Virus record (IMG/VR): IMGVR_UViG_3300034061_001919
Location: 1-30,752 of that record
DNA: 30,752 bases
Direction: 5' to 3' (one strand)
From: a virus
The notes beneath the pieces were generated by a model. That model searched no databases, was not told the DNA's origin, and was given only the letters and a program-made list of their open reading frames with translations. The position numbers were made by a program, and so were the translations under genes. Position 1 is the stretch's first letter, and every line of letters begins with the position of its first letter. Positions 3,939-24,029 of this stretch are shown here, piece after piece.

Positions 3939-4241
3939 TTATTGGAACTGATAAATGTCATAATCCATAAAGAAGAAGAAATCACCATCTTGAAATTGTT
4001 TTCCTTTAGGTGGTATTTCAACACAATTTAATATTACAAATTTTTCACAAAGTGGGTTAATAATTTTAACCCCTATTGAAGGTGCAGTATCAAAAGGCGT
4101 GGGTAAAGTTATAATCACTTGTGGTGGAATATTGGTATTTACCGTAGACACTAACACACAAGAATTACCATATACATTACATATGTAAATTTGATATGGT
4201 GTGGTTATTCCTGTTACATTACTTATTACTAATTGTGTCAT
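3939..4241 (-). CDS. Small tail-associated protein sharing a C-terminal tail with its neighbour (100 aa)
   Basis: A short beta-rich protein of unknown function. The N-terminal 75 residues contain TTPYQIYICNVYGNSC and a regular alternation of hydrophobic residues with four cysteines (C21, C28, C65, C73), suggesting a small beta-sandwich. Residues 83-100 (FQDGDFFFFMDYDIYQFQ) align without gaps to the last 18 residues of the upstream 749-aa adhesin (FQDDVEFVFMDDINYVFQ), 10 of 18 identical. Its ATG overlaps the stop of the 749-aa gene by one base (TAATG), so translation is probably coupled. I infer a shared docking or assembly tail in two neighbouring tail-tip proteins. Coding status is well supported by the overlap arrangement and the conserved tail; the function is not known. 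Confidence 0.72.
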   Translation of the reverse strand: MTQLVISNVTGITTPYQIYICNVYGNSCVLVSTVNTNIPPQVIITLPTPFDTAPSIGVKIINPLCEKFVILNCVEIPPKGKQFQDGDFFFFMDYDIYQFQ

Positions 4242-6490
4242 TATTGAAATACATAATTTATATCATCCATAAATACAAACTCTACGTCATCTTGGAAAAC
4301 TTTTGTATCCCCTCCACAGAAAACACAAGAAATGTCATAATTTATGATTAGATTTATTATAACATTAGAATCGTCTAATTGTGTTTCCACGTTAATTTGA
4401 CAATCTGTCCCACCAGTTATACATCCACTTTTAATTGTTATTTCATTAGTTTCTATATTTGTTATAACACTAGTGATACCACTAAATGAATACAATAAAT
4501 TTTTAATCGCAATAGTCCATTCATTGTCTGTTGGGTAATCATTTAAACCGGTGGATGTGTAAAATACGTTTTGTTGATTAACACCGTCAATTGTAATGTC
4601 TACAGTGAATGTTGCAGAATTTAAAATACAACCTGTGTCTCCACTCGTTAAGTCAAAATATCCCTCATTAAACATTTGTAAGACACCTCTTCTTCCTGAA
4701 ATCCCACTATTTACAAAGTTGGATGAACATACGTTATAAGTTTCAAAACTACTATAATATGTTGTCCCAACTAATGTTGTTTGTTTTGTAAAAGTACAAC
4801 CACTCGCATCAATAACCTCTAATGTGTATGTTCCCGCAGTTAAACCTGTAACAGTTGTTCCTGTTTGCCCATTCACGTTTGGACTCCAATTGTATGTGAA
4901 TGGTGGCACACCACTACTTATCATTGTAGTTATTTCACCATCACTACCAAGTGTCGGTTGGTTAACAAAAAAATCAAAATAAACACCAGCAGAACCATTA
5001 ACAAAGACAGTATCTGTTTGACTACATCCTCCTGCATCAGTAACAGTAATATTGTAAAATCCAGATGGTAAATTATTATATGTGGTAATAAACCCCGGTG
5101 CGTATCCCTCAACTTGGTATGTATATGGTAAAGTTCCTCCTGAAGACGCTAGTATTTGTACAATACCATTGTTTAACCCACAAGTGGTACCTGTAACATT
5201 TGTTGTTATAGTAAACAAATTAGTGTTTGATAATGTTGTTGTCCCTGTGAACGTACAAGTTCCATTAGTTATAAAAATGGTATAGTCTCCCGATGTAAGC
5301 GCTGGTGATGTATAACTAGTTCCTTGTGTAACCGTATCTACAGTAACTCCCGATGAATTAACTAAACTATAAACATAGGTACCAGAATTTGACCCTCCAT
5401 CTAACTCAATAAAAATTTGCCCGTCATTGTTGTTACAATTTGAGTTTTGAGTGGTAATTGATGCAATTCCAAACCCATTTGGTGTGATTAAACTAATATT
5501 TGATGTTGCAACACAAAGACCCGCATCGGTTACATTTACATAAAATATCCCTGATGACAACCCACTAAAAGTATAAGAACTATCAAAAGTTATTCCAACC
5601 GTTCCATTTGATCCAGAGAAATAAAATGGTGCGGTTCCTCCTGTTATTTGTACATCAACCACACCGTTGTTTGTAAAACAAGCAGGTGAAACAGTTGTAA
5701 ATCCGACAATTCCCACAGGTGGTACATCCTGAACAATAATATTACTTATCGTTTTAGCACACCCGTTACTGTCAGTTACTGTAACAGTATATGCTCCGTC
5801 TGTAAGTCCTGTAACAGTAGAACCAGTTTGTCCATTTGCATTTGAACTCCAACTATACGTATATGGTGGTGTTCCAGTTTGTCCCGTAACAAATATCTTA
5901 CCTAAACCTTCAGACGTAACACAACTGCCGTCTTTGATTACATAAACACCATAATCTAATGTTGTTGATGATTTAACAATACAGGTTTCACTTTTACCTG
6001 TACATCCCCCACCATCATTACCAACAACATAATAAGTTCCCGCAGAAAGGGATTGGAAATCATAACTACCAAATAGGGTATTACCGCTTGTTATATATCC
6101 GTTAGTTGTCTCATAAAGAAAAACCTCACCATTACCATAATCAACGGAAAATGTTGCGGTGAGCGAACCATTATCAAACCCACAAGTTGTACTTGTTGTT
6201 GATGTAATACTTAAACAACTACCAGTAGATATGTTAAAATTAACAAGTATTGTTGATGCGGTTAAACACGAATCTTGTATTTCTAAACTATATGACCCAC
6301 CACTTAAACCACTAAAATAATAAGAAGTTGTTGTCGCAGAAGTTGGTAGTAATCCTGATGAAGATATTTCAGTCACCGAAAATGGTGGTGATGTACTACC
6401 AGTTATATCAAATGATATAACCCCGGAGTTTGTATTACTACAATCACCACTCAAAAAGTAATTATATATAAATGGCGTTCCGCAACTCAT
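4241..6490 (-). CDS. Adhesin with SprB-type repeats (749 aa)
   Basis: A large, Ser/Thr/Gly-rich beta protein made of about seven modules of roughly 80-95 residues (residues about 15-575). Two modules (207-244 and 528-565) are near-textbook SprB repeats: PPYTYSWSSNANGQTG...VTGLTDGAYTVTVTDSNGC and PPFTYNWSPNVNGQTG...VTGLTAGTYTLEVIDASGC, each ending in a conserved Gly-Cys. SprB repeats are known from cell-surface gliding adhesins and other large secreted proteins of Bacteroidota. Residues about 626-721 form a different module that resembles the C-terminus of the preceding 1000-aa protein. The last 18 residues resemble those of the next gene product. Start and stop both overlap neighbours by one base (TAATG). 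Probable role: tail-tip or fibre adhesin that contacts the cell surface or its glycans. No signal peptide or type IX secretion signal is seen, which fits a virion protein. Confidence 0.82.
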   Translation of the reverse strand: MSCGTPFIYNYFLSGDCSNTNSGVISFDITGSTSPPFSVTEISSSGLLPTSATTTSYYFSGLSGGSYSLEIQDSCLTASTILVNFNISTGSCLSITSTTSTTCGFDNGSLTATFSVDYGNGEVFLYETTNGYITSGNTLFGSYDFQSLSAGTYYVVGNDGGGCTGKSETCIVKSSTTLDYGVYVIKDGSCVTSEGLGKIFVTGQTGTPPYTYSWSSNANGQTGSTVTGLTDGAYTVTVTDSNGCAKTISNIIVQDVPPVGIVGFTTVSPACFTNNGVVDVQITGGTAPFYFSGSNGTVGITFDSSYTFSGLSSGIFYVNVTDAGLCVATSNISLITPNGFGIASITTQNSNCNNNDGQIFIELDGGSNSGTYVYSLVNSSGVTVDTVTQGTSYTSPALTSGDYTIFITNGTCTFTGTTTLSNTNLFTITTNVTGTTCGLNNGIVQILASSGGTLPYTYQVEGYAPGFITTYNNLPSGFYNITVTDAGGCSQTDTVFVNGSAGVYFDFFVNQPTLGSDGEITTMISSGVPPFTYNWSPNVNGQTGTTVTGLTAGTYTLEVIDASGCTFTKQTTLVGTTYYSSFETYNVCSSNFVNSGISGRRGVLQMFNEGYFDLTSGDTGCILNSATFTVDITIDGVNQQNVFYTSTGLNDYPTDNEWTIAIKNLLYSFSGITSVITNIETNEITIKSGCITGGTDCQINVETQLDDSNVIINLIINYDISCVFCGGDTKVFQDDVEFVFMDDINYVFQ
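4766..6448 (-). repeat. SprB-like repeat region of the 749-aa adhesin
   Basis: About seven diverged modules. Each contains a Cys-Gly/Asn-x-Asn-(D/N)-G-x-(I/V/L) entry (CGFDNGSL at 103-110, CFTNNGVV at 271-278, CNNNDGQI at 352-359, CGLNNGIV at 437-444) and a G-x-Y-x-(I/V)-x-(V/I)-x-D-x-x-G-C exit. Nucleotide identity between units is low, so this is an old, diverged protein repeat and not a recent DNA duplication. Confidence 0.7.
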
Positions 6491-9400: not shown

Positions 9401-9492
9401 CCACCAGCAACTAACTGAAAACCAACTAAATTATCAGAAAAAGTACCTTCTCCGCTGGCTTGTGGAGGACAAGTATATTTTGTAACCGCCAT
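6490..9492 (-). CDS. Large baseplate/tail protein with P2 gpI-like segment (1000 aa)
   Basis: A probable baseplate or tail-tip structural protein. The middle part (about residues 330-500) holds a helical region with YRNLILNSAYLFKSKGTRKSIELLLRLIGAPE, including the KGT...LL.LIG pattern seen in tail protein I (P2 gpI) type baseplate proteins, preceded by a long region rich in charged helices (EYRTNLLSRFLTAGALKEFDTQDQ). The N-terminal 300 residues are beta-rich. The C-terminal 92 residues (909-1000) form a separate module resembling part of the next protein (626-721 of the 749-aa adhesin). I suggest the helical part anchors to the baseplate and the C-terminal module faces the adhesins. The ATG overlaps the upstream stop by one base and the gene has the same overlap at its own end. 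The gpI relation is by motif impression, not alignment. Confidence 0.65.
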   Translation of the reverse strand: MAVTKYTCPPQASGEGTFSDNLVGFQLVAGGGLTQANFEFTTNVTEKVNRTFTIGSFSDPISLSTLNIDSIEQSKLLVAKNFQVYPNFDLSEITNFTTYGSLSKRISTSVTKIINYFPAALEIYKNTLQYAPTKTAINIQYNSIENETYFEIPLVAIRNPLEIDYTTSAARNIRVREFPVSPLRDITAEYPKYGVFVNENVYQINTLIPVTDTDTTLKLYVEGNLFSGQSYSSDTIIIRPTDYYVNKVFNEDFDEVENFLLNRNITPKYTAYFNTPIENENGGYTLTVKTARFPINGTWNLAIVGSEFEQYLLKLNQISEDLDEYRTNLLSRFLTAGALKEFDTQDQKIEKILQIYGRSFDETKKFIGALAYMNSVHYTVKNDIPSQLLKNLAQTLGWKDNISPISNEELLSSVFSSGENTFTGLSKGQTPEELNYQYYRNLILNSAYLFKSKGTRKSIELLLRLIGAPEALTDFNEYVYIADQKINLSQFEQQYSLLTGGTYSQFTPILDTTDIFSIMGVQYTGFTTSVTVQDVSVSRSDYPIDSFGFPSMPTDSGSYYFQIGGGWIESTPQHRMPAEVNNDLNTFTGQNPNYQTTLLPFNYGEEYLQKYRQFPYMGIGFKLRKTMDNKKSWVDSQSVLRQNSDAGFNAYYTVGDDKLVLNVKNVDIFMNPAQGLLYDVWYMSRQYNFPIPEQGLNYVEPTYCNPNPNPPYPSRGGIDWTEIIPKPKQKTFFEFAQTFWHNMINVRNRQFITDGKTGGYPTLQSIYWKYLESQELAGIQNDNFKYQTMIDYINGIGDYWIRLVEQMVPATTIWNAGTKYENSIFHRQKFVWRRQMGCQLVLVPCNPCLLVGQLFAYDCPIQTTNCPVYPWQSNPVVESFASLFGFTLNSFLETNGLGFNDCNLNSLQTTWYVNVNFNGTDIISYPFFNGVGYNNVLSIPTETQWVSAITSSFVDLQDYGLSYILNENDTLTIYNNNCIPLGVEQTFELNVGINFNLLCN

Positions 9493-10400
9493 TATCCTGT
9501 TATGTTTGTAAAGTTTTTAGTAAAATCAATATTATTACCTCTATCTTGTCTAACTTCATATAAAAGTTCATTAAATTGATCTCTTACTTCATATAAGTTG
9601 TATTGTTTGTATATGTTATTGTTACTATCGTAAATCGTGTAAATACCATCATCAATGGATTTAGTTTGATTTCCATAAAGAGCAATTGCTAATGTTGATA
9701 TATCGTGTTCAACTATTTCAATTTCAGTAGTTATTGGATTAAAAAATGTGTTTGACACAATAATATCTTGGTTTGGTTGTCCAATAAACGGTGTTGCGTT
9801 TGGTTTGTTGGTTGGTGACGATGACGGTGATAGGGTACAAAACACTAAATTTGTAACTCCTTCAGTGTATCTATATCTAATAGATTTTTGTGAAGTATTT
9901 GTTAGATTTTGAATAACCGGCTCACAATAAAAAGATGAGGTAATCATTCTAAAGAAATTAGGTATTTTTGTTCCGTCTGAATTCAAATATTCTACTCTAA
10001 AACCAATGAGTCCCTGATTTACAAATTTATTTCTAAACTGTGTCGGAACATTGTTAACGTCAATAACAATACCTTTAACGTTAGGTAATGCCGAAAGTAT
10101 ACCACAGTCCGTAATTCGTGTTCTTATTTCTGCGGGTCTTATATATAATGTATAAATCCCCAATCTATTAAATTGTTCTGCAGGTAATTTTAGGTTGTAT
10201 AAACCACCTAATATTTCAATATCCGCATTACCACCTGTTTCATTGTTATTAAAATATGGACGTAAAATAGTTTTAGCATCCAATTTAGTTAAAACGAAAT
10301 TGTCAGTATCATCCCTACTTGGGGTATAATTTAATATTATATCCACATCGTCGGGACTTACATCGGCTGGTCTAATTGTTCCGTAACTACCTGTTGCCAC
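9492..10400 (-). CDS. Uncharacterised virion/tail protein (302 aa), GTG start
   Basis: I do not recognise this protein. It begins MATGSYGTIRPADVSPDDVDIIL and is a soluble, mixed alpha/beta sequence with no membrane segment. The C-terminal part (residues about 245-290) has two related short stretches, YNLYEVRDQ and LLYEVRQD, in a beta-rich run. The start codon is GTG (10400-10398): an in-frame TAA lies a few codons upstream and no ATG follows in the first 60 codons. It overlaps the 1000-aa gene by one base (TAATG). Its place inside the structural block suggests a baseplate or tail connector, but nothing more specific can be claimed. Confidence 0.6.
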   Translation of the reverse strand: MATGSYGTIRPADVSPDDVDIILNYTPSRDDTDNFVLTKLDAKTILRPYFNNNETGGNADIEILGGLYNLKLPAEQFNRLGIYTLYIRPAEIRTRITDCGILSALPNVKGIVIDVNNVPTQFRNKFVNQGLIGFRVEYLNSDGTKIPNFFRMITSSFYCEPVIQNLTNTSQKSIRYRYTEGVTNLVFCTLSPSSSPTNKPNATPFIGQPNQDIIVSNTFFNPITTEIEIVEHDISTLAIALYGNQTKSIDDGIYTIYDSNNNIYKQYNLYEVRDQFNELLYEVRQDRGNNIDFTKNFTNITG

Positions 10401-11625: not shown

Positions 11626-12444
11626 TTAAATAGGATTTACGTATTCATACCAAGTTATTGGTTGTTGTTCTCTACCTACTCGTATAAAATTATTTGTCGG
11701 TCTAAACACTCTATATGTCTTATTTGTATAATCTAATCTAACTCTATAATAAAAATAATCATCACCATTGAAGGTGTATGGACTTGGTATTTGAAACTGT
11801 GGTGTGTTAACCATTGTAATATATGTTCCAGTTCTACCATTAAAAAATTTAGCCGACATATAAAATTGATTAATGTCAATATAATTTTGTTTTCTTAACC
11901 AGTAGATGAAAAATCCTTCTTTATCTCCGATATAGTCTAACCTCATTCTTGGTGTTTTCACATCTACATTACCTAATGAAAGTGAAATTGACGTACTCTC
12001 GGTAAATCCTTGTTGTACAGGTAGTATTATTGTGAAATAATTTTTTTGACTTGTTGGCTCTGGCGTATCGTAGAAATCCAATTTAAAAAATGACTTTGTA
12101 AATGGTTTACTAAAATAATACAACTCTTGTCCCGTAAACCCAACCGCCTCATAATCACTAACATAATTACTTATATTTGCAGTTGGTACATTAGCAGGAT
12201 TACCACTATAAAAAAAGAAATTATAATTAATTGACGTTTTTTCATTACCCATTCGTATATAGGTATCGTGCGAAAATCTACTAACCTCAAAATCATTCGC
12301 CGCACCAATTATCTCCTCTAAAATTGTTTTTTCGTATTCATCAACACTATCATCCCTACCACTGAAATCCCACTTCATTTCTATTGGAATATCAATTTGT
12401 TTGTCAAGTGTTGATCTTACTATTTTATATTTATTCACAGTCAT
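11626..12444 (-). CDS. Uncharacterised virion protein (272 aa)
   Basis: Not recognised. The sequence is rich in aromatic residues and short beta strands (for example YFYYRVRLDYTNKTYRVFRP near the C-terminus), has no cysteine, no signal peptide and no membrane segment. It overlaps the 3' end of the 581-aa gene by 14 bases and is followed after one base by the PKD-domain gene, so it is in the same transcription unit and probably translationally coupled. A structural role in the baseplate or tail is inferred from position only. Confidence 0.6.
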   Translation of the reverse strand: MTVNKYKIVRSTLDKQIDIPIEMKWDFSGRDDSVDEYEKTILEEIIGAANDFEVSRFSHDTYIRMGNEKTSINYNFFFYSGNPANVPTANISNYVSDYEAVGFTGQELYYFSKPFTKSFFKLDFYDTPEPTSQKNYFTIILPVQQGFTESTSISLSLGNVDVKTPRMRLDYIGDKEGFFIYWLRKQNYIDINQFYMSAKFFNGRTGTYITMVNTPQFQIPSPYTFNGDDYFYYRVRLDYTNKTYRVFRPTNNFIRVGREQQPITWYEYVNPI

Positions 12445-14176
12445 CTATTGTTGGTTCTGCAATGTCGTTTATGAATTCATTTCCTGTTTGACTACCTTCA
12501 GGTATTAACCTAAATACAATATTTGTAAACGGGTAATGTTTTCCGTTTATAAATGGGAAATCAACACCAAGATTATCTCCATCAATGTACCCATAAGGAT
12601 AAAGATCTCTCCATCTAAAACTATTTGATAGGTTTGAATAGAACGCATAATTCGGTATTCCCACAATTTGTTGTGCGTCCCCCTCTTCAATGTAATCAGA
12701 AAATACTCTAATCCTGATTGGGTTATGTGGTTTATAATAATACCCTAATTGATTAGTTGGGTTTATTGTTGTTCCTGTTAACGCAAACCAAGCAGGATTA
12801 AACGTTATTTTATGGTGTTTTACTGAAATAACCCTTTCAAGTTGTTCATATGAATTAAACTCACAAAAATCTCCATCAACAACATCCCCAACTTGTAAGT
12901 CTCTTTGGTAAACGAAGGGTCCTGCAGGAGGTGTAGTTTGACTAAAATAAAATTCTGTTGGTATTGTACTATTTGATAAACTATTGTTAATGTCCCACCA
13001 AGGTGATGGATTATTATTATACAACGGAAGATTAAATTCATAACCCTCTTTTAGTGGGTTTGTCCAACCAAAATAACCTTTCCAAATTGTGGTGAAAAAC
13101 AATTCTGAAACCGGTCTTTTTTGATTATCTATTAAAACATTAATATCTATATCTTCATTAAACGATAGGGTATACGCCTGACTTCCTTCTTTTATTGATG
13201 TTCTTGATAAGTTGTTGGGTGTTAAAACCGCAGGTTCTGTTTTACTATCACTGTTAAAAATATTTTGTTCAAATCCAGCTTTAGTTAAAATATAATCTGA
13301 TACGTTTGTTAATATTCTATGTCGTCTAACATAGTATGTTGACGTAGTTTCACCCGAATTTGTAATATCAATAACTCTTTTAAATGTTCCCGTAACTCCT
13401 TGATTAAAGGTGGTACCTGTATATCCAATATTATCAATGTTAAAAATATATTCTTCACTACCATACCCTTCACTACCTAAACTAGTAACCGGAAAAAATG
13501 TTTCACCAAAATAATCAAAAGACAACTGAACATATTCCCCAACATTTAACCCGTGTGGGGAAACACATCTAAAGGATATATCCCTTGAGTTGTTATTGTT
13601 TCCAACACTAATAATAAATGGTATCCCATCAGATGCCGTCCAAACCCAAGAAGCAGATGTTTCTTGATCTATAGCCTGTAATTGTTTATTAAAGACATTA
13701 TCATACGCATAACTCATATAATGAGTCCAATTATATTTTGTACTATTCTTGTTAACAAACGTTATGTGATTATTTGGTGGTATAGTATATCCTGCGGTAT
13801 TATTATCAGTTCTAATAAAATCAAATTCAAAATATTGCGGATAACCATCCCACGGCAATGAAGGATTTGTTGTTGCACTTATGGCGTTATTAATAGCATT
13901 GGCATAAAATAAATTATTTCTAAATGGTCTATATGAAACTGAACCAACATATTGATTTTTAAATATAAAACTATATTTACAAACAGGTCTAAAAATGTTT
14001 GATTTTTCTCTCTCATCAATAAAAACTTGTTGTAAACTTAAATTAACACTACGATCAAATTCAACGTTTTCTCTTTGTGTCTGTTCTAATGTAATTTTAG
14101 AAGACAACAAAGTATTCGGAGATGTTTTATATCTCAACGAACCTAATACTATTCTTGTTTCATCATCAATTCCCAT
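12431..14176 (-). CDS. Probable baseplate-associated protein (581 aa), gp8 position
   Basis: No family recognised from sequence. It is a long, mainly beta protein without membrane segments, with aromatic-rich stretches (PSLPWDGYPQYFEFDF; SNSFRWRDLYPYGYIDGDNLG). Its ATG overlaps the stop of the 1751-aa gene by one base. In phage T4 the wedge genes run 25-6-7-8; here gp25- and gp6-like genes are followed by the 1751-aa gene and then this one, so by position it corresponds to gp8. T4 gp8 is about 334 residues and I see no clear sequence match, so this is a synteny guess only. Confidence 0.55.
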   Translation of the reverse strand: MGIDDETRIVLGSLRYKTSPNTLLSSKITLEQTQRENVEFDRSVNLSLQQVFIDEREKSNIFRPVCKYSFIFKNQYVGSVSYRPFRNNLFYANAINNAISATTNPSLPWDGYPQYFEFDFIRTDNNTAGYTIPPNNHITFVNKNSTKYNWTHYMSYAYDNVFNKQLQAIDQETSASWVWTASDGIPFIISVGNNNNSRDISFRCVSPHGLNVGEYVQLSFDYFGETFFPVTSLGSEGYGSEEYIFNIDNIGYTGTTFNQGVTGTFKRVIDITNSGETTSTYYVRRHRILTNVSDYILTKAGFEQNIFNSDSKTEPAVLTPNNLSRTSIKEGSQAYTLSFNEDIDINVLIDNQKRPVSELFFTTIWKGYFGWTNPLKEGYEFNLPLYNNNPSPWWDINNSLSNSTIPTEFYFSQTTPPAGPFVYQRDLQVGDVVDGDFCEFNSYEQLERVISVKHHKITFNPAWFALTGTTINPTNQLGYYYKPHNPIRIRVFSDYIEEGDAQQIVGIPNYAFYSNLSNSFRWRDLYPYGYIDGDNLGVDFPFINGKHYPFTNIVFRLIPEGSQTGNEFINDIAEPTIDDCE

Positions 14177-17100
14177 TAGTCTAATTCGGTATCTATATAT
14201 ATTTTTATAAATCTATTTATTGCTGTTTTTCCATTCTTTAATCCAAAATAGAAATGATACGGAGCACCAACAATAAATGATGCAAATCCTGGAGTATTGT
14301 TAAATGCCGATAGTAAAGTCACAGGAGGGACATCACCAATAGTGTCTTCTGGTGGTGTTGGGTTAAAGTTGGTTATGAACCCATAATATATATTTGGAAA
14401 AGTTTGGGACATTTGGTTAGTTTTAAAATAAGGACTTGTTACCGCATCTAAATCTTGATAACCTGACACATAAAAGCCATTTGGTAATGATCCAGTCACC
14501 CAATCATTTTTTTCACTACCAAAAATATTATTGGTTTGTTGTATTTTCCATCTATACATTGGTACATCCTGTGTTTTTGGGTATCCGTAATAACTCTGTA
14601 ATGGTACTGTTGTGGCAAATGAATATATATTAAAACCTGGAGATAATGCCCTTCTGTTTCTATATTCTTCTTGTGTTGTGTTATAAAATATACCAAAAAC
14701 AGGATCTCCATTAGTATTGTATGAACTTATCCAAACATATTCATCAGGATAATTACCACCAATAAATGGTGTTACCTGATACTCTGAGTTTATTGAAAAC
14801 GCTTGTGCAATATCCCCATCAATTCTATCTCCCGTCCTTGAAAAGAATTGTTCAACACTTGCATTATTTACGGATAAAACCTGTTGTAAGAATGTTGAAT
14901 TGATTATCCTTGATATAATTGCTAATTGTAATACATCTGAACTGTCTTGGTATGAGGTACTCTTATATGTATTACCTAAATATTTACCACTAAAATCAGG
15001 ATCATTACAGATAAAACTTATAAATTCATCTCTATTCCCCATATCTAAAATAGTGGTCGGGAACATAATTTGTCTAACATTTTGTGAATCGTCAGATGTG
15101 GATATACCTAACAAATTTGTCAAAAAATTATCTGGTGACGGTGGTGGTGCCCCAATAAACTTATTAGATGTTGCGTCGTAAGGTGAACTTCTATAATAAA
15201 AATTGTTACTTATATCATTAAAAACAACCAATTTATCACAATAATTATAATTTGGTACACCAAAAATATTAAATGTTGTTTGTTTATTAAATGATGGCAT
15301 ATATAACGAGCCGTTTAACCAATTGTTTTGGAACATATGTCCGAAGACTCCTCTACACGCACCAAATATAATTCTAAATCTAGTTCTCCATTCTGCCAAA
15401 TACTGAATATCATCTTTAATTGTTTTTATTAATTTATCATCAACAAAATAATAACATCCTCCATTAACTCTTTTATTCTGATTATTATCCCCAGTCTGAT
15501 TAAATGTACAAGGATCGGCAACTTCAAAATCATTACCAACACCTTGGTAACACTTTAATGGAACCATACCTTCACAACTAAAACTATTAACTATTGTTGC
15601 GGTATTTCCTGTACCTAAATCACCAAAAGCATCAATATCATTTAACCCTTGAACTCCGCCAATAGCAGCACTAAAGTTAACAATTTGTCCTTCTTCATCT
15701 ATAGAATAGAATGAAAAATTATTATTTTGATGTAGCGGGAATGAATTATATCCTACAGTATCTAAAACATCTGAAGTTGGTAATCTATCAGATCTAAATA
15801 TTAGTCGTTGACTTGGATTAATGTTTGTTGATATCGGGGTATAACCGTTGTTATTTAGGTTATATGCCGGAGCATAACATCTAGCGTATGGTGGTTGTAC
15901 CAAATTGAATACTGGTTGTCCAATTAACGCACCAGAACCTCCATCATAACAAGTATATAGAGGCGAATTCGTTACAGTAAATGAACCACCATCAACTCTA
16001 CCAATAAACTCAGTTAAAATTCCTGATGTCACTGTTGACTTCCATCTAAAAACTTGATTAGTAGAGTTACCATTGTTTATATATAAATTAGAATCAACCC
16101 AATTACCTATTGTTATTGTATCATACGCTCCGTGAACATAATTAAATGTTGATTTATCGGTTGAGGTATAATACCTTGGTGAATCCGTTGTAAACGCACT
16201 AAAAGCGGAAACATCAACAGTGAATCCTATTGGTTGGTGAAATAGATTAATATTTCCATTTGATGTTGCCAAACTATGACTTTCAGGTGTTTGTTGGTCT
16301 TGATAATAAGTCGGGTTACCTGAATTTTGTTGTATTGGTATGTTAAGATGATAATTTCCGGTTACTGTTATTGTATTTGTTGGTCTACCAAATAATTCCG
16401 ATAAATCATATTTAATTTCTTGTTTTTCAGTATATGGGTCAACACCTCTTGTTAATATTAATAATTCTTGATTTTGATAATCATTAAACCAATACCAAGG
16501 TGGTGTGTGTGACCCAGGAGTATTACTTATGTATGATATTTTATTACCATAAAAATATTTCCACAAAACACCACCACTAATAACACTAGTCGGTCCCGTA
16601 GTGGCTAAAGGTAAATATGGTGATGTTGACGATGTAAGTTGATTCCACGTATATCCTGTTACTACTTGGAAGTATTCAATACCAGATCGATATAAATATT
16701 GTTTTTCACTTTCATTACTTACTACCGTTATGTTTGATGTAATGTTATTACCATTACCATCCATATAGGTTAATGGTACGGTATATGTTCCATTACCAAG
16801 TGTTGTTCCTGTTATCGCATTTCCACTAAATTGGTTAACAGTACCACCTGACACATTCGGGTCATTAGTACTTAAAGGGTTAGTAAACGCAATAATTTTT
16901 CCTTCTAACTGACTTATGGTACCTGGATCAACCAAAACAATTAATGATAAATCCTGATAAGAATTACCTCCATTACCTAATGTTGTGGAACCAACAATAG
17001 AAGGGTTTGGTGTTACTGTAATTCTGTTTCTAGCGGTATTATCAAAGTATCTAGGTCTAATGTTCGCCAAATTCATTGACTGTGCCAACGTTAAACCGTC

Positions 17101-19431
17101 TCCAAATCTTTTAAAAAATGTTCCTGATGTCGCAGATGCCCCACCTGGACCTAATTCCTCCCACAATGGTACTTTATAATATGTTCTAGCAGGATTAGCA
17201 ATACCCGCGAAAAGTTGTTGTGATCCTTGATCCCAAAGTGTTTGGTCAGCGCCACTAATAGTTCCACCACAAGGATTAATACTTGGTGATAATGTCCACT
17301 GAGAATAATTACCAATAGTGTTTAAATCACTTAATAATGATTGGTTAATACTTAATGCCGCAGCACTTAATGATATTGCAATAGTATTTACTGTATTTAA
17401 ACTCTCATCAGGACAAGAACACACTTCACAATCAGGATAAGTCATCATAGGTAATCCTAATCTCTTAAATGGATTTTCATCACTCATAGGTGCAATCACT
17501 TCTTTTTTACACTCAAGATTACCACCTAAAGAGTTAATCGCTTTACACGCACTATAAACAATACCATTAACCAAATCCGCAATGAAATTTACAACTTCAA
17601 CAACGATTGGATATATCAACGCAAGTACGTGATTAACAATTATTATCACAACTATCATTGGTGACACAATTGTTAATAACAATGAAAATAAAAAGAAGAT
17701 GAAATCAAAATTCCTTTGTAGATCGTTTACTGGTAATTTATTGTTTTCGCTTTGGCAAGCCCTATCTGTTATTTCTTTTATCCCTAAATGTCTTGATCTA
17801 TTACTACCACATTTAAACCTATCAATAAATCCACTAATCGTGTAAACTTTATTATAATTAAATTCGTAAAACGTATCTTCACAATTAATCGCTTCTTGTT
17901 TGTTTGCATAATCATCCCAATCTAAACTAAAAGCATACGATTTTAATACCTCAAAATATGGTTGAGCAAAAAACGTAAAATTGAACAACATAGGTTGAGT
18001 ATTATCTATTGGAATGGCGGATATTGTAACTGTATTTACGACATTGGGTAATGGCACACTTTCAGTTCCCCCATAATAAGGAATACCATTAATTGAGATA
18101 CTAACTTGTTGTGTGTTTGTGTAACTATTTAAAATAAATCCTCCCTTGTTTAGGATAAAACTATCTGTTGTAAAACCTGTTGCTATTGGTATATCAAATG
18201 TTTGCGAAAAAGCGTCAGGATTAAATGGGTCGGTATTAGGTAAATTATCGTTCCACCCATACTCTTTAACATTTGGAACCAAATAATTCCCCCTCATAAA
18301 GTTATTTTGTAAACCTTGCTCGTTTTGCCATTTTATCTTAAATCTATATCTACCTTTTGTTGGTATCCCAATTGTTGGATCGTTAGATAAAACTTGTTCC
18401 CCAAATTCATTTGTTGTAACATAATCCAAATTCATAGGGACATTTACTAACCATACACCATCACTATCAATTAACTTACCATCTTCCTCTAACCTATATT
18501 GTTCTAATATTGGGTCACCATTTTGATCAGTATTTATTGTTTGTCTGATTGCTAAAATTTGTCCAGGACCAGCAATCAAATCACACATATTACCTGTGTT
18601 TATCTTTGGTTTGCAACTTTTTTTAACAGAATCTTCATCAGGTGTTGAGAATATTGATCCCATAAAAACCGATGTGGGTTGTATATTAACATTTGCGGAA
18701 CCTGTCAAATCAAAATCAACTCTTGTTATCCCTAATAAACAAATTTCAGGCTCCCCCCATAATGGTTGTACCTCAACAATTTTATTTAGACTAATAATTT
18801 GTGGTAACTCTCTAAGATTTGTTGATGATTTAAACTTATTACCATCAACTTGTGATTCTGTTGCTAATCCAGAATTTATTAAATCTTGTGGTGATAAAGA
18901 AAAACACCCAATATCTGATAAGTCAACATCCATAACCACAGTTTGTGTCCCTGTAGGAACACCAAATATCATATAATCACCACTTTCATTTGTTTTTACG
19001 GTAAATTTATAATATTTGTCATAGACTTCAATTAACGGATCGTATGTTAAAACATCTTCTCTCGTTGGGAACGTCCCTGTTGCGGCGTGACTTGGGTATG
19101 ATTTTGTATACGGTAATAAATTATATCTATACCCATCCTCATTTAAATCATCTAATGAACTATATGGATATAGTTCAGATATGATTGGATTATTTTCGTC
19201 TTCATCACTAATTGGAATAAAAATGGATACTTTTGCGTTTGGAACTCCGAATCCTCCGTTAACTAAAACTCTACCAACAACAACACCATAATCAGAACAA
19301 ACTCTGGTGTAAATGTCACTTTGGAGTATTTTAAGTGATAAAATCTCCAAGTATTCAAAATCCTGATCTAATTGTATTTTAATTGACTTATCAACCCCTG
19401 GTTGGGTTCTTATTCTATATGATTTTGGCAT
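14176..19431 (-). CDS. Giant baseplate/tail protein (1751 aa), gp7 position, with internal hydrophobic segment
   Basis: The largest protein of the window, placed directly after the gp6-like wedge gene where T4 has gp7 (1032 aa). Residues about 48-170 resemble a carboxypeptidase-regulatory-like (transthyretin-type) beta-sandwich: GVVVGRVLVNGGFGVPNAKVSIF, then the typical TNESGDYMIFGVPTGTQTVVM. Residues 576-628 are strongly hydrophobic (FIFFLFSLLLTIVSPMIVVIIIVN and onward), long enough for two membrane-spanning helices. A cysteine cluster follows (C629, C641, C668, C671, C673), which might bind metal. The remaining 1000 residues are beta-rich with no family I know. Upstream is a 72-base gap with a TATTTATC element. 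The wedge role is inferred from gene order; the hydrophobic hairpin and transthyretin-like domain are not features of T4 gp7. Confidence 0.6.
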   Translation of the reverse strand: MPKSYRIRTQPGVDKSIKIQLDQDFEYLEILSLKILQSDIYTRVCSDYGVVVGRVLVNGGFGVPNAKVSIFIPISDEDENNPIISELYPYSSLDDLNEDGYRYNLLPYTKSYPSHAATGTFPTREDVLTYDPLIEVYDKYYKFTVKTNESGDYMIFGVPTGTQTVVMDVDLSDIGCFSLSPQDLINSGLATESQVDGNKFKSSTNLRELPQIISLNKIVEVQPLWGEPEICLLGITRVDFDLTGSANVNIQPTSVFMGSIFSTPDEDSVKKSCKPKINTGNMCDLIAGPGQILAIRQTINTDQNGDPILEQYRLEEDGKLIDSDGVWLVNVPMNLDYVTTNEFGEQVLSNDPTIGIPTKGRYRFKIKWQNEQGLQNNFMRGNYLVPNVKEYGWNDNLPNTDPFNPDAFSQTFDIPIATGFTTDSFILNKGGFILNSYTNTQQVSISINGIPYYGGTESVPLPNVVNTVTISAIPIDNTQPMLFNFTFFAQPYFEVLKSYAFSLDWDDYANKQEAINCEDTFYEFNYNKVYTISGFIDRFKCGSNRSRHLGIKEITDRACQSENNKLPVNDLQRNFDFIFFLFSLLLTIVSPMIVVIIIVNHVLALIYPIVVEVVNFIADLVNGIVYSACKAINSLGGNLECKKEVIAPMSDENPFKRLGLPMMTYPDCEVCSCPDESLNTVNTIAISLSAAALSINQSLLSDLNTIGNYSQWTLSPSINPCGGTISGADQTLWDQGSQQLFAGIANPARTYYKVPLWEELGPGGASATSGTFFKRFGDGLTLAQSMNLANIRPRYFDNTARNRITVTPNPSIVGSTTLGNGGNSYQDLSLIVLVDPGTISQLEGKIIAFTNPLSTNDPNVSGGTVNQFSGNAITGTTLGNGTYTVPLTYMDGNGNNITSNITVVSNESEKQYLYRSGIEYFQVVTGYTWNQLTSSTSPYLPLATTGPTSVISGGVLWKYFYGNKISYISNTPGSHTPPWYWFNDYQNQELLILTRGVDPYTEKQEIKYDLSELFGRPTNTITVTGNYHLNIPIQQNSGNPTYYQDQQTPESHSLATSNGNINLFHQPIGFTVDVSAFSAFTTDSPRYYTSTDKSTFNYVHGAYDTITIGNWVDSNLYINNGNSTNQVFRWKSTVTSGILTEFIGRVDGGSFTVTNSPLYTCYDGGSGALIGQPVFNLVQPPYARCYAPAYNLNNNGYTPISTNINPSQRLIFRSDRLPTSDVLDTVGYNSFPLHQNNNFSFYSIDEEGQIVNFSAAIGGVQGLNDIDAFGDLGTGNTATIVNSFSCEGMVPLKCYQGVGNDFEVADPCTFNQTGDNNQNKRVNGGCYYFVDDKLIKTIKDDIQYLAEWRTRFRIIFGACRGVFGHMFQNNWLNGSLYMPSFNKQTTFNIFGVPNYNYCDKLVVFNDISNNFYYRSSPYDATSNKFIGAPPPSPDNFLTNLLGISTSDDSQNVRQIMFPTTILDMGNRDEFISFICNDPDFSGKYLGNTYKSTSYQDSSDVLQLAIISRIINSTFLQQVLSVNNASVEQFFSRTGDRIDGDIAQAFSINSEYQVTPFIGGNYPDEYVWISSYNTNGDPVFGIFYNTTQEEYRNRRALSPGFNIYSFATTVPLQSYYGYPKTQDVPMYRWKIQQTNNIFGSEKNDWVTGSLPNGFYVSGYQDLDAVTSPYFKTNQMSQTFPNIYYGFITNFNPTPPEDTIGDVPPVTLLSAFNNTPGFASFIVGAPYHFYFGLKNGKTAINRFIKIYIDTELD

Positions 19432-19503: not shown

Positions 19504-21342
19504 TCAAGAGAAATTGACCGTCTTCAAATTAAGAACCCTCACATTAATGTCCTTATTTGGTAATCTTACTTGGTATATTTGTGTTGGTTCCGCAAATATG
19601 GTATCCGCAATTAAACCAATTTCTCTTGTTACCGGATCTGAATATGCTTGTGACGTTTGGGAAGAAGAGTATTGACCTCCTACATTATTAATAAATGACA
19701 TATCAGATATACTAATCACCCCGTTTTCATTCTGTATTTGTCTTCTTAATTCTGACACATAAACATTTTCACCCATTTGTCTTTGTAATGGACTAAAATA
19801 GTTGGTAATAATATCAATTATTTTTGTAACAACAGAACCTTGATTTTGACTAGCATCTAAAACAACATCAACATTAACACTTAAATCAATTACATTAGCA
19901 GACTCTATAGAAATATAATCATTTATCATCCTATAATTTGATAGGTAATTAGCAACATTATTTTTTAAAGTATTTGATACAACTTCAGTTAACTTACCAT
20001 TTGAGTCGTATGATAACATCTTGATTTTTATTTTATTATTTTCTTCAGTAATTGCTACTTTACCAGGCGCACCGAATTGTGATGGCATATTTCTTAATAT
20101 AGATTCATAATCATTTATCGTAACCGCTCTATTTTGTGCCGCAAAATTAAATGATACATATTGTCTAACTTCTTCTGTTGTTGGGGCGTTTGCACCTCCA
20201 ATCGCTGCGGTAACGTTATTACATGCTAATGAATTAACTACGGTTGTGTTTATTGATTCTGAAGGACCATTAACAAAAAATGAAACGGTTCCAATTTGAT
20301 TAATAATATTAATACCCAAATTTGTTGCTTGCCCACCTCCAACTCTATACTGAACAAATAATGTTGAGTTTGATTTTAATGCCGACCCTAACGCTAAATT
20401 ATTGATGTATTTACTTAAATCTAACGTATAACCGTCTCTTGCAAAATCTCTTAATTGCTCATCGGCAGAAACATTACCACCACCAAATGTCATCTTTAAA
20501 TAACCTTCAGGTGTGTATTCACTTATGAATTTACTATCCGTTGTAATGTACTTACCTACCTTAATACCAGGTTGATCCGAAACCTTTGTTGGATCTTCAA
20601 TAAAGACTCTGTTTTCCGCTAAAGCAGGAACTTCATACCATCTATTTTCAATACCTAAAAATTCTTGTGGTGGTGGAACATTACTATACTGTGTACCGTC
20701 TTTTAAAAGAACACTTGTTATTCCTAATACATTTTTTTCAGGTAAAAATAATTCAAAAAATGGTTTAACATCGTTTGGTGTTATAGTTCTTTTAAACACC
20801 TTTGTAAATCCATTAACCACAACTTCTCTCTTAACAATAGTGTAATTTAACAATCTACCACTACCATCAAAATTTGGTATTTTTAATCTATTTGGGGAAC
20901 CTTCGGCATTAACCGCAGATGCAAAATCAATATCATAAACAGTTTCAAACGGTTGTCCTGCACCATTAACTTGTGAACCTCTCCTCAATATACCACAATA
21001 CCTTAAGTCTTCCCTATCTCCAAACGCAGGTACGGTAATTGCAAAATCAACTAACGCAACAGAAGGTCTTTGTCCCGGTATTTTTAAACCATAGGTTCTG
21101 GCGATATTATATATTGATGATTTTTGTTGTGCATATTGTAATACCGTTTCTTGAATGCTTCTATCAATATTAAAGTGTAGATTGTCTGTTACAGCAGCAT
21201 TTAAATCCAAAAATACAGAGAAAACCCCCGCATCGTTAAAATTCTGAACTAATTCGGGGTAATAAGTTCTGGTAAAATTGATTAACTCGGTTCTAATCCC
21301 TTGAAAATCTCTTGTGGTGTATGAAATTTTTTTATTAGCCAT
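19504..21342 (-). CDS. Baseplate wedge subunit, T4 gp6-like (612 aa)
   Basis: Homologous in pattern to the gp6/gpJ family of contractile-tail baseplates, the wedge subunit that forms the iris-like ring around the central hub. The N-terminus (YTTRDFQGIRTELINFTRTYYPELVQNFNDAG, then DLNAAVTDNLHFNIDRSIQETVLQYA) is the typical family opening. A later segment (TTEEVRQYVSFNFAAQNRAVTINDYESILRNMP) is the conserved helical part of J-like proteins, and the ISIESANVIDLSVNVDVVLD strand set follows. Length is close to T4 gp6 (660 aa). It starts five bases after the gp25-like gene's stop, the same order as in T4 (25 then 6). The start ATG lacks a GGAGG-type ribosome binding site. Confidence 0.87.
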   Translation of the reverse strand: MANKKISYTTRDFQGIRTELINFTRTYYPELVQNFNDAGVFSVFLDLNAAVTDNLHFNIDRSIQETVLQYAQQKSSIYNIARTYGLKIPGQRPSVALVDFAITVPAFGDREDLRYCGILRRGSQVNGAGQPFETVYDIDFASAVNAEGSPNRLKIPNFDGSGRLLNYTIVKREVVVNGFTKVFKRTITPNDVKPFFELFLPEKNVLGITSVLLKDGTQYSNVPPPQEFLGIENRWYEVPALAENRVFIEDPTKVSDQPGIKVGKYITTDSKFISEYTPEGYLKMTFGGGNVSADEQLRDFARDGYTLDLSKYINNLALGSALKSNSTLFVQYRVGGGQATNLGINIINQIGTVSFFVNGPSESINTTVVNSLACNNVTAAIGGANAPTTEEVRQYVSFNFAAQNRAVTINDYESILRNMPSQFGAPGKVAITEENNKIKIKMLSYDSNGKLTEVVSNTLKNNVANYLSNYRMINDYISIESANVIDLSVNVDVVLDASQNQGSVVTKIIDIITNYFSPLQRQMGENVYVSELRRQIQNENGVISISDMSFINNVGGQYSSSQTSQAYSDPVTREIGLIADTIFAEPTQIYQVRLPNKDINVRVLNLKTVNFS

Positions 21343-21347
21343 ATCTA

Positions 21348-21806
21348 TTATACATTAATAATTACGAAGTCACTGGCATCAAATGCGGAATTAGTATTTC
21401 TATAATCTATTCTAATCCTTGCGGTATGTTCAAGTTGTGAAATATTATTAACAGTAAATTCTCTTTTTCCTTCACCGTTAATATATGTTCCCCTACTTTC
21501 TTCATCCATAGAAGCGTCAGTTATTTTTATGTTTGTAATTGTAATTCCAGGTAAATAAGTTTCAACAGATTGTCTAATTTCATCTTCAATTTGACTAAAA
21601 GTTGGACCGTCTAATGGTTCAAAAATATATTCATATAATCTACTACCAAAATCAGGCAAAAAATATCTAGTACCTTTACGACTTAAAAGTAAATGAACTA
21701 AATTAGTCCTTATTTCCTCTTCGGTACTATCAGAACAATCTAAATATTTTCCAACGTATGAATCAAGAAATGGAAAATTTATACCATATGTTACTCCGTT
21801 TGCCAT
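21348..21806 (-). CDS. Baseplate wedge subunit, T4 gp25-like (152 aa)
   Basis: A gp25/gpW-family protein, the small wedge subunit that binds gp6 and primes sheath polymerisation. Conserved features are GINFPF (8-13), EEEIRTNLVHLLLSRKGTRYFLPDFGSRLYEYIFEP (29-64; the R-K-G-x-R...P-x-F-G-S-x-L pattern is diagnostic), and a C-terminal beta strand ending TARIRIDYRN. Length is near T4 gp25 (132 aa). It is the first gene of the morphogenesis block, separated from the replication block by a hairpin terminator, and it is preceded by two TATTTAT elements. Confidence 0.9.
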   Translation of the reverse strand: MANGVTYGINFPFLDSYVGKYLDCSDSTEEEIRTNLVHLLLSRKGTRYFLPDFGSRLYEYIFEPLDGPTFSQIEDEIRQSVETYLPGITITNIKITDASMDEESRGTYINGEGKREFTVNNISQLEHTARIRIDYRNTNSAFDASDFVIINV

Positions 21807-21811
21807 ATCTA

Positions 21812-21844
21812 ATAAATATAATATTGGTATATTTTATATAAATA
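21812..21844 (-). promoter_or_regulatory. Two TATTTAT(A) elements upstream of the gp25-like gene
   Basis: One perfect TATTTATA at 21837-21844 and a second TATTTAT at 21812-21818 (6 bases before the ATG), both read on the coding strand. They fill the gap between the terminator hairpin and the first structural gene, which is where a late promoter would be needed if the terminator is efficient. The region is very A/T-rich, so chance matches are possible. Confidence 0.38.
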
Positions 21845-21875
21845 AAAAAAATCACTACTTTCGTAGTGATTTTTT
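21844..21875 (-). terminator. Intrinsic terminator after the replication block
   Basis: ATCACTAC (21851-21858), loop TTTC, GTAGTGAT (21863-21870): a perfect 8-bp stem flanked by A7 on one side and T5 on the other, so it can end transcription on the minus strand and potentially on either strand. The stop codon of the 75-aa gene (21855-21857) lies inside the stem. Confidence 0.85.
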
Positions 21876-22082
21876 AAAGGTTTTATTACCTTTTTGATAG
21901 AGAGGTTCGTAAGGACAATTTTTACATCTATTTCCACAACAACTTCCTCTTTTAATATGGTAAGATTCACTCATAACAATATTACCGTTTTCATCCTTAT
22001 AAAAATCAGGCTCAGGAGACTTTTTTGTTGTCTCCTGAACATATAGTTGTTGAACCCAATCATTTGATGCTGAACGTATCAT
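21855..22082 (-). CDS. Small cysteine-cluster protein, DUF5522-like (75 aa)
   Basis: The C-terminal half contains YHIKRGSCCGNRCKNCPYEP (residues 41-60), with four cysteines in a CC-x3-C-x2-C arrangement followed by Pro-Tyr. I recognise this as the signature of DUF5522, a short family of unknown function common in Bacteroidota, where the motif reads roughly RGYCCxNGCRHCPY. It probably binds a metal ion, by the spacing, but that is inferred. The gene is last in the replication block; its stop codon lies within the terminator stem. Presence of a host-type small protein beside the ribonucleotide reductase suggests acquisition from a bacteroidete, or a long-standing phage copy. Confidence 0.75.
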   Translation of the reverse strand: MIRSASNDWVQQLYVQETTKKSPEPDFYKDENGNIVMSESYHIKRGSCCGNRCKNCPYEPLYQKGNKTFKKSLRK

Positions 22083-22169: not shown

Positions 22170-24029
22170 TTACACAATTTCACAAGCTCCACCAGCACAA
22201 GCCACTTCACCACGAAGGTCGGTGTTATCTTGTAACTCAATAACTTTTGTCAAATCAACGTCTTTTAGTGTTGAGAGAAGTTTTTCAAAATCTTCTTGAG
22301 TACAGTCTTCAAAAGGGGCTTGTGTGTAAGTTCCACCGTTGTAGGGTAATACGGACAATCCGTTGTAAAATTTACGATTTTTCCACATCCAGTCACCAAC
22401 TAGCTCCCACTCATCTTCCTTAATTGACACTGTAGCTGAAACGTTGTGTGTATTTTGTCCACCTCTGTGTCCAGGACGAATCCATTCTTGTGAAACTTTT
22501 TTAACACGTTCCAACATTTGGAATACTGATTCGTGACGAAGGATTGAACCTTCTGGTGATTTTTGTGGTATTGTAATTACCGCGGTATCGTGTGGACGGA
22601 AGAACTCATCTTCAACAAGTTCGGGGTGATTGATTGCAAGATAAGTATAAATTGCTTCATTCTTTCCAACACGAATTCTTCTTAAATAATAATCATTATG
22701 CCAAGCGTGAATTCCTGATGAAGTTCCCAATACAAGTGATGATGTTCCTGATGGTTTAACTGTTGTTGTTCTTGCGGCTTTGTTAATTCCGATTAAATTA
22801 GCAACTCTTTCGTTTTCTTCTTTAACCGCCTGTGCTGCCTCCTTCATATCATAACCTAAAACAACACCCGAACCAATACCTGTCATACCAACACCAATAA
22901 GCGCATCTTTTTCAGTTGTTCTTTTCCAAACATCACGAAGATAATGGAAGTCGGTGTACCCCGCCTGTAATGTTCCAATAAACGCAGCACCTTTAACTCT
23001 TGTTTCAAAATCTTCTTGTGACACAATATCTGATGCGTTTACCTCACAAAGATTACAGAACTGATAAGGTCTTAGTCCGATTTCACAACAAGGGTTTGTT
23101 CCCCAATCTTTATCATTAGATAGATAAATCCCTGGTTCACCTGCTCCTGACAATTCAATTCTTTTCCACAAATCCATAAAGTATTCTTGTGTTACTTTGT
23201 GACGAAGAAGAACCGCTGAATTGTTTGCTCTACCTCTTTGTGGATTTTGTTCCCACCAATTTCCTGACTTACAAGAAATCATTTCATCATCATCAGCCGA
23301 GAACAATGAAATAAGTGCTGCTCTACGAATACCACCAGCAAGAACCGCATCCGCGATATGACAAGTAATGTCGTGAGCTTCAATTGGTGTTAATTTTTCA
23401 CCATCTTCTTTGTTTTCCAACACTTTTGTGATGTTATGAATACAATCTTTAAGTGGTTGAGGACCTGGTGCCTTTCCACCTGATGTTACAAGAAGAGCAC
23501 CTTTATGACGAATATCAGAGAAATCAAATACAGGTGTTGACGATTTGGAACCCATATATGATTCTATCAATACTTTAATTGCATCTGCCCAACCTTCAAT
23601 TGAATCTCCGATGAGATATCTTCTTGTTCTGTTAGGGTTTGGTTTTTTGATTTCAGGTAGTTTATCTACGTGGTGTTTTTGAACTGAAAATCCTACACCA
23701 GTACCTCCCAATAATAGGAACATTGTTTCAGAAAACGCGTCTGTATGATCGATTGGTAGATAAGCACAATTGTAGACTCTGTTTGGTGAAATCTCAATTG
23801 GTTTACCTCCAAATTGTAAGGACCTCATTGATGGTAAAATTTTCTTATCATATACCATCTTATAAACTTCCTCAATTTCATTTTTGATTTGAGGGTATTT
23901 CTTTTGGTGCATTTCTTTGTTTCTTGTCACCAACTCTTCCCAAGTTTCCCTTCTATTTAGTTCGGGAATAAATTTAGCGTATTTCATATACACCGTAATA
24001 TCACTCAATATTTTTTGTGAAATATCCAT
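22170..24029 (-). CDS. nrdJ: Adenosylcobalamin-dependent class II ribonucleotide reductase (619 aa)
   Basis: Reduces ribonucleotides to deoxyribonucleotides for phage DNA synthesis. It matches the monomeric class II type (Lactobacillus leichmannii RTPR): C88 in NRVYNCAYLP is the first redox cysteine, C314 in TNPCCEIG the thiyl-radical cysteine, E316 the catalytic glutamate, C325 in FCNLCEVN the second redox cysteine, and the C-terminal pair C611/C616 (CAGGACEIV) the thiol-exchange cysteines. The spacings 314-316-325 and 611-616 equal 408-410-419 and 731-736 of RTPR. TTVKPSGTSSLVLGTSSGIHA (about 437-457) is the phosphate-binding loop region. At 619 residues it is shorter than RTPR (739). No NrdB or NrdG partner is present, as expected. 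It follows the helicase gene after an 18-base gap. The triphosphate preference is inferred from the family. Confidence 0.93.
   Translation of the reverse strand: MDISQKILSDITVYMKYAKFIPELNRRETWEELVTRNKEMHQKKYPQIKNEIEEVYKMVYDKKILPSMRSLQFGGKPIEISPNRVYNCAYLPIDHTDAFSETMFLLLGGTGVGFSVQKHHVDKLPEIKKPNPNRTRRYLIGDSIEGWADAIKVLIESYMGSKSSTPVFDFSDIRHKGALLVTSGGKAPGPQPLKDCIHNITKVLENKEDGEKLTPIEAHDITCHIADAVLAGGIRRAALISLFSADDDEMISCKSGNWWEQNPQRGRANNSAVLLRHKVTQEYFMDLWKRIELSGAGEPGIYLSNDKDWGTNPCCEIGLRPYQFCNLCEVNASDIVSQEDFETRVKGAAFIGTLQAGYTDFHYLRDVWKRTTEKDALIGVGMTGIGSGVVLGYDMKEAAQAVKEENERVANLIGINKAARTTTVKPSGTSSLVLGTSSGIHAWHNDYYLRRIRVGKNEAIYTYLAINHPELVEDEFFRPHDTAVITIPQKSPEGSILRHESVFQMLERVKKVSQEWIRPGHRGGQNTHNVSATVSIKEDEWELVGDWMWKNRKFYNGLSVLPYNGGTYTQAPFEDCTQEDFEKLLSTLKDVDLTKVIELQDNTDLRGEVACAGGACEIV

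Follow-up and report, generated by a model that had tools for sequence, protein, structure and literature searches.

A conserved hydrophobic insert, a candidate membrane-active arm, in a large baseplate-cassette protein of uncultured phages

Introduction

Contractile baseplates have an inter-subunit helical core bundle in common (PMC10457771, PMC6300606), and the baseplates of T6SS dock on a membrane complex (PMC6300606). The megatron protein of RcGTA and roseophage R4C contains an iris/penetration domain that is proposed to insert in the outer membrane (PMC7296036, PMC10276861). The tape-measure proteins of R4C and TP901-1 carry transmembrane segments that are thought to form an inner-membrane channel. 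Pore-forming colicins keep a non-amphipathic helical hairpin within a soluble protein until it contacts a membrane. The GenBank entry of T4 gp7 notes that its 'C-terminus is predicted integral membrane domain'.

Here we analyse a 30,752-base virus record (IMG/VR IMGVR_UViG_3300034061_001919), referred to as the window, which encodes a 1751-aa protein with a strongly hydrophobic segment. This segment is present in all relatives examined, is non-amphipathic and stands between invariant cysteines, and the gene has a fixed place in a baseplate cassette.

Results

The 1751-aa protein is encoded next to a gp6-like gene

The following genes of the window define the cassette around the protein:

21348-21806, minus strand: gp25-like baseplate wedge protein (152 aa; PHROG 261, E 3e-16)
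19504-21342, minus strand: gp6-like / Baseplate_J protein (612 aa; PHROG 219, E 5e-24; PF04865, E 3e-8)
14176-19431, minus strand: 1751-aa protein, next after the gp6-like gene
12431-14176, minus strand: 581-aa protein, whose gene comes next after the 1751-aa homologue in nearly all homologous loci

The gp6-like gene is the upstream operon neighbour of the 1751-aa gene, which follows the gp25-like and gp6-like genes and adjoins the latter as the genes of the wedge proteins T4 gp7 and TssG do. Loci that extend far enough share the order gp25-like, gp6-like, 1751-aa protein and then proteins of 581, 272, 390, 302 and 1000 aa. The reading frame of the 1751-aa protein is intact in homologues, with lengths of about 1591-1971 aa where complete. 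Pfam and PHROG searches gave no significant family match for the 581-aa protein, and family searches with the downstream neighbours of the 1751-aa gene gave no match that would place them. The 302-aa protein (9492-10400, minus strand, GTG start) is among the best conserved in the cassette (81% median best-segment identity, 97 loci), keeps its length of 302 aa unchanged in several distant members and has no Pfam or PHROG match.

Several other genes of the window deserve mention. A 749-aa protein (4241-6490, minus strand) contains SprB repeats (PF13573, E 4e-8), as does its homologue in a 304-kb contig. SprB repeats in a tail-region gene suggest a Bacteroidota host, because that lineage is where the repeat is known, or mimicry of a gliding adhesin. 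Just before the gp25-like gene, a terminator-like hairpin with a T-run (21844-21869) overlaps a 75-aa ORF (21855-22082, minus strand) that contains CCGNRCKNCPY and is a member of DUF5522 (E 1e-16). Between the replication and baseplate genes lies a B12-dependent (class II) ribonucleotide reductase (22170-24029, minus strand) with 69% identity to the enzyme of Microcystis phage Mel-JY01.

The family has no match in Pfam, PHROG or PDB sequences

Five scans of IMG/VR yielded at least 299 sequences including the window's own, and the family is larger. The homologues come from uncultured phages, and conservation was counted over the 180 distinct listed sequences that cover the region. Queries with the window protein and with two distant family members found no homologues in 50,697 phage records; in 84,980 bacterial and archaeal genomes, none were confirmed. 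The window protein has no match among Pfam, PHROG or PDB sequence entries, and the family represents abundant putative tail proteins outside the coverage of these collections.

The initial annotation had treated the protein as a counterpart of T4 gp7. Comparison by hhalign with T4 gp6, gp7, gp8, gp9, gp10 and gp53 revealed no homology; for gp7 the probability was 0.1, in a comparison of a 115-sequence family profile with the single T4 sequence that has limited sensitivity. Nor did hhalign detect homology to the large proteins that Flavobacterium phage immuto, Microcystis phage Mel-JY01 and LR756508 encode after gp6, and these proteins have no comparable hydrophobic segment (Kyte-Doolittle maxima 1.11-1.39). 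Foldseek searches of both monomer part-models described below (pTM 0.45 and 0.55) returned no gp7-like fold, of which a helix-turn-helix core-bundle motif and a trifurcation domain would be the marks. The equivalence with gp7 is one of gene position, without detectable homology, and the idea that an N-terminal transthyretin-like domain marks a departure from gp7 is moot, since nothing but their place in the gene order was found to link the two proteins.

Each of the family's 11 large contigs has a sheath-family match, in 8 of them over the curated cut-off, which indicates that the tails are contractile. One of the matching ORFs (L162 15683-19255; contig G001 210682-214254) is unusually long for a sheath gene, at about 1190 codons (aa); at the same position, the open frames of nine other large contigs run to 1066-1281 aa and that of one to 406 aa. 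None of the 11 large contigs contains psbA, a sign of cyanophages. The lineage is widespread, uncultured and contractile-tailed, and some of its contigs approach 300 kb.

A hydrophobic segment is kept in every homologue examined

The features of the 1751-aa protein used below are:

18922-19290, minus strand: N-terminal beta domain (residues ~48-170), possibly carboxypeptidase-regulatory (transthyretin)-like, a weak resemblance
17722-17940, minus strand: conserved approach to the insert (residues 498-570), with low AlphaFold2 confidence at 528-574
17881-17883, minus strand: Cys517, in 180/180 homologues
17755-17757, minus strand: Cys559, just ahead of the insert, in 180/180 homologues
17602-17703, minus strand: hydrophobic core of the insert (residues 577-610), 34-35 residues long and charge-free across the family
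17629-17631, minus strand: His601, inside the hydrophobic segment, in 179/180 homologues
17530-17703, minus strand: single continuous helix (residues 577-634) predicted by AlphaFold2, block pLDDT ~65-81
17509-17547, minus strand: Cys629-Cys641 pair, limited to near relatives and not a family motif
17413-17430, minus strand: C-x2-C-x-C (residues 668-673), which follows the insert and is part of the motif LPM.(S/T)YP(D/E)C..C.C
14179-15795, minus strand: conserved C-terminal part (residues ~1213-1751), without fold match

The initial annotation had reported a hydrophobic segment at 17548-17706, corresponding to residues 576-628. We confirmed it: the 19-residue Kyte-Doolittle maximum of the window protein is 2.91, at residues 581-599, against a best value of 1.30 outside the region. 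When the protein was shuffled 3000 times, the maxima averaged 1.85 (s.d. 0.27, highest 3.04), indicating that composition alone seldom yields such a stretch. No other ORF of the window exceeds 1.56. In a 304-kb relative, we scanned 80 kb surrounding the structural genes as four 20-kb pieces, with border-crossing ORFs read in pieces; there the homologue is the sole ORF above 1.8 (3.05; next 1.77).

All 180 homologues keep the segment, and in all of them it is more hydrophobic than any other place in the same protein, with Kyte-Doolittle maxima of 2.02-3.45 (median 2.76) inside and a median of 1.34 (largest 2.07) in the rest. Charged residues occupy 0.6% of cells in columns 577-589 and 0.8% in columns 592-610, compared with 14.5% and 17.0% in two control stretches of the same protein, and 85% of cells in these columns hold aliphatic or aromatic residues. 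Where hydrophobicity peaks, the hydrophobic moment is low (median 0.16), which means that the segment lacks a polar, amphipathic face, and a flat Hessa-type sum with approximate scale values is below 0 in 83%. To compare like with like, we matched columns that are at least 85% hydrophobic inside the segment with such columns elsewhere in residues 45-900. Mean entropy is 1.99 bits inside (n=23) vs 0.92 bits elsewhere (n=169; Mann-Whitney p ~9e-9). Conservation is weakly periodic in helix A of the segment (p 0.02) and shows no periodicity in helix B. This pattern, charge-free and non-amphipathic with drifting identity and retained hydrophobicity, would be expected of a lipid-facing helix, and a loosely constrained buried surface could also give rise to it. 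Membrane helices often end in Trp and Lys/Arg. Here the helix end carries Trp607 in 73 of 115 sequences and Lys or Arg at 611 in 118 of 180.

The segment is framed by conserved residues. C231, C283, C517, C559, P567, D570, C668 and C671 are invariant in 180/180 homologues, and H601 and C45 (179/180 each) and C673 (175/180) are nearly so; thus the survey, which could have exposed a lack of conservation, instead found the segment together with C668 and C671 in every sequence. Outside the insert the family is highly conserved, and the approach to it, residues 500-570, has a mean column entropy of 1.32 bits. A cysteine cluster had been noted at 629-673. Its residues are where they were placed and its C668-x2-C671-x-C673 part is conserved; we rejected C629-x11-C641 as part of the motif, with C641 in 6 of 115 homologues and column 629 mostly L. 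Other invariant or near-invariant cysteines are C45, C231, C273 and C283, joined in the C-terminal part by those at 1286, 1294, 1308, 1326, 1359 and 1398. Together, the cysteines across the protein may form a disulfide or metal network.

The length of the insert varies around a fixed core. The stretch 577-610 has 34 residues in 164 homologues and 35 in 16, and D570 and C668 are 61-152 residues apart. Of the 180 homologues, 162 have a further hydrophobic 19-mer in the interval 611-661 and 18, including the window protein, are without it, so the number of hydrophobic helices varies within the family. A constant number of spans, as expected of an integral membrane protein with defined topology, is not what the family displays (162/180 vs 18/180). 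In two homologues, L154 and L302, the insert after residue 610 is very short, with 12 and 27 residues to the P661 region, respectively; these would be the minimal forms of the insert. Within the core, 40 of 115 homologues have proline at 591 and 48 have it at 592, i.e., up to 88 sequences, and R or K is at 590 in 20% of this 115-sequence alignment. Two membrane spans in the window protein, as initially proposed, are not borne out: the conserved part, with 34-35 residues, is short for two spans and in the family usually interrupted by proline at 591/592, and the structural model has one helix at 577-634.

The segment is predicted as a long helix or helical hairpin

We modelled two overlapping monomer parts with AlphaFold2, a design with which burial by partner subunits stays compatible. 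The model of window residues 1-1190 (78 aligned sequences; mean pLDDT 72.6, pTM 0.45) has one helix at 577-634 between low-confidence flanks, 528-574 and 662-696, and pLDDT falls below 50 at 528-557 and 560-574. For a relative in which the further hydrophobic segment is present (L049), the part matching residues 560 to the end (mean pLDDT 76.9, pTM 0.55) was predicted to contain helices 18-76 (59 residues) and 81-111 (31 residues) with block pLDDT of ~83-95, that is, a confident long helical hairpin. Judged by secondary structure and confidence, neither model puts the segment into an ordinary soluble core, the outcome that would have counted against the initial proposal. The conserved yet low-confidence approach 528-574 probably folds on a partner. 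As modelled, the 1751-aa protein has a beta-rich architecture into which one helical element is inserted.

Foldseek with the hairpin-bearing L049 half gave no match at E <= 0.001 in the PDB or the viral library. The N-terminal part has weak Foldseek matches to pilin and teneurin-type beta domains; one N-terminal match at 8e-4 had TM-scores of 0.07 and 0.12 and was rejected as chance. A transthyretin-like domain, initially assigned to the N-terminus, gains weak backing from Pfam CarboxypepD_reg, which matches 5 of the 24 members searched with E no better than 0.002, and finds none in the window protein itself, which has no Pfam match to this family.

Discussion

The hydrophobic segment is real, universal among the 180 listed homologues of its family, and unusual. 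As its function we tentatively favour, at somewhat below even probability, a membrane-active helical arm that would be sequestered in the assembled baseplate and insert into the host membrane on rearrangement, in preference to a fully buried structural bundle. The hydrophobic helical arm would be an insertion in a large protein that is produced along with the gp25-like and gp6-like baseplate proteins. It would leave and re-enter this protein between conserved cysteine stretches (C517 and C559 before, C668/C671/C673 after), and the cysteines, through metal binding or disulfides, may hold its base together. The 1751-aa protein would be present in virions, and neighbouring baseplate subunits would shelter the arm from water in the finished particle with its extended tail. 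Rearrangement of the baseplate, the putative trigger, would expose the arm, which would then enter the lipid of the host membrane, and His601 may have a role in its function. The initial annotation had already suggested such release on contraction; it may take place, and we put it forward as a proposal.

Several lines of evidence are consistent with a membrane-active arm. They comprise the retention of the segment in 180/180 homologues, its charge-free columns, its high drift in identity and the Trp607 and Lys/Arg611 helix end, as well as its standing as the sole ORF above 1.8 in 80 kb of the 304-kb relative and the contractile tails. The predicted structure, a long helix or helical hairpin and not a soluble-core fold, also points this way, as does the analogy with the outer-membrane-inserting baseplate helices proposed for RcGTA and roseophage R4C. 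Other observations argue against it. With a varying number of helices, no single membrane topology would suit the whole family, and the conserved 34-35 residues exceed what one crossing needs yet fall short of two. A constant length and an almost invariant histidine would also be expected of a packed element, and T4 gp7, which is in the soluble wedge, has a segment with a Kyte-Doolittle value of 2.07.

Much of the same data would also fit two other readings, an anchor for assembly and an inter-subunit bundle that is buried completely. The latter, which we consider quite possible if less probable than a membrane-active arm, would enclose the arm between baseplate subunits as a hydrophobic bundle that holds the wedge or ring and never meets lipid. 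It would comprise several copies, or one copy with partner helices, in a role comparable to the (gp6)2-gp7 core bundle. It explains the fixed 34-35 residue length of 577-610 and His601 (179/180) better than a membrane arm does, and the conserved, low-confidence flanks suggest folding on a partner. Precedents would be the gp7 segment (2.07), hydrophobic despite its soluble wedge membership, and the inter-subunit helical core bundle common to contractile baseplates (PMC10457771, PMC6300606). However, a bundle accounts less well for the drifting identity and the optional helix: 34 residues without a polar face vary in identity far more than other hydrophobic positions, and an insert length of 61-152 residues with an optional further helix is odd for a packed lattice element.

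An anchor for assembly only, which would hold the nascent protein at the inner membrane while the wedge or hub is assembled and then be folded away, without a role in infection, seems improbable to us. Segments as hydrophobic as this one normally engage the membrane insertion machinery while the protein is still being made, and the docking of T6SS baseplates on a membrane complex (PMC6300606) offers a parallel. Yet if each of the variable helices were a span, the C-terminal 1080 residues would lie on differing sides of the membrane, and these phages give no independent sign of membrane-coupled assembly. The lack of homology to any known tail protein might also suit a membrane protein of the infected cell, such as a lysis or exclusion factor, that is encoded in the tail operon. 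We regard this as very unlikely, given the fixed position of the gene, flanked in nearly all loci by the gp6-like gene and further conserved members of the cassette, a size and beta-rich architecture typical of tail proteins, and the high conservation outside the insert.

For the favoured membrane-active arm, the nearest functional precedents would be the iris/penetration domain of RcGTA and R4C and tape-measure proteins with transmembrane segments. The megatron, a distal-tail protein, resembles our protein, whose putative distal-tail location follows from gene order, in having a hydrophobic helical part, which in our protein has the hydrophobicity and composition of a possible membrane span. 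In the megatron this part is closed off before infection, and our protein may have a comparable sequestered state. The megatron is, however, a central tail-tip protein of non-contractile tails with an N-terminal hydrophobic part, whereas the 1751-aa protein would carry an internal arm flanked by invariant cysteines and is a gp6 neighbour in a contractile tail. No PDB sequence match and no Foldseek match at E <= 0.001 for the hairpin half linked it to the megatron or hub proteins. Tape measures lie within the tube and are long and helical throughout their description, in contrast to the beta-rich 1751-aa protein with its one helical insert. T4 gp7 resembles it as a large protein encoded directly after gp6 with one moderately hydrophobic segment (886-904, 2.07); it differs in length (1032 vs 1751 aa), in a weaker and shorter segment near the C-terminus and in having no comparable cysteine arrangement. 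Colicins bury their hairpin in a helix bundle of their own, and the AlphaFold2 models of our family are without such a bundle.

It is not settled how contractile phages pass tightly through the envelope of bacteria around the tip of the tube. With a triggered, membrane-inserting arm in a wedge-region protein, anchoring in the host envelope or opening it on sheath contraction would be a task of the baseplate too, in addition to the hub or tape measure; we consider this reading doubtful at present. If true, such an arm would add a new contact, open to testing, between the baseplate and lipid, found in every relative examined of a common phage group.
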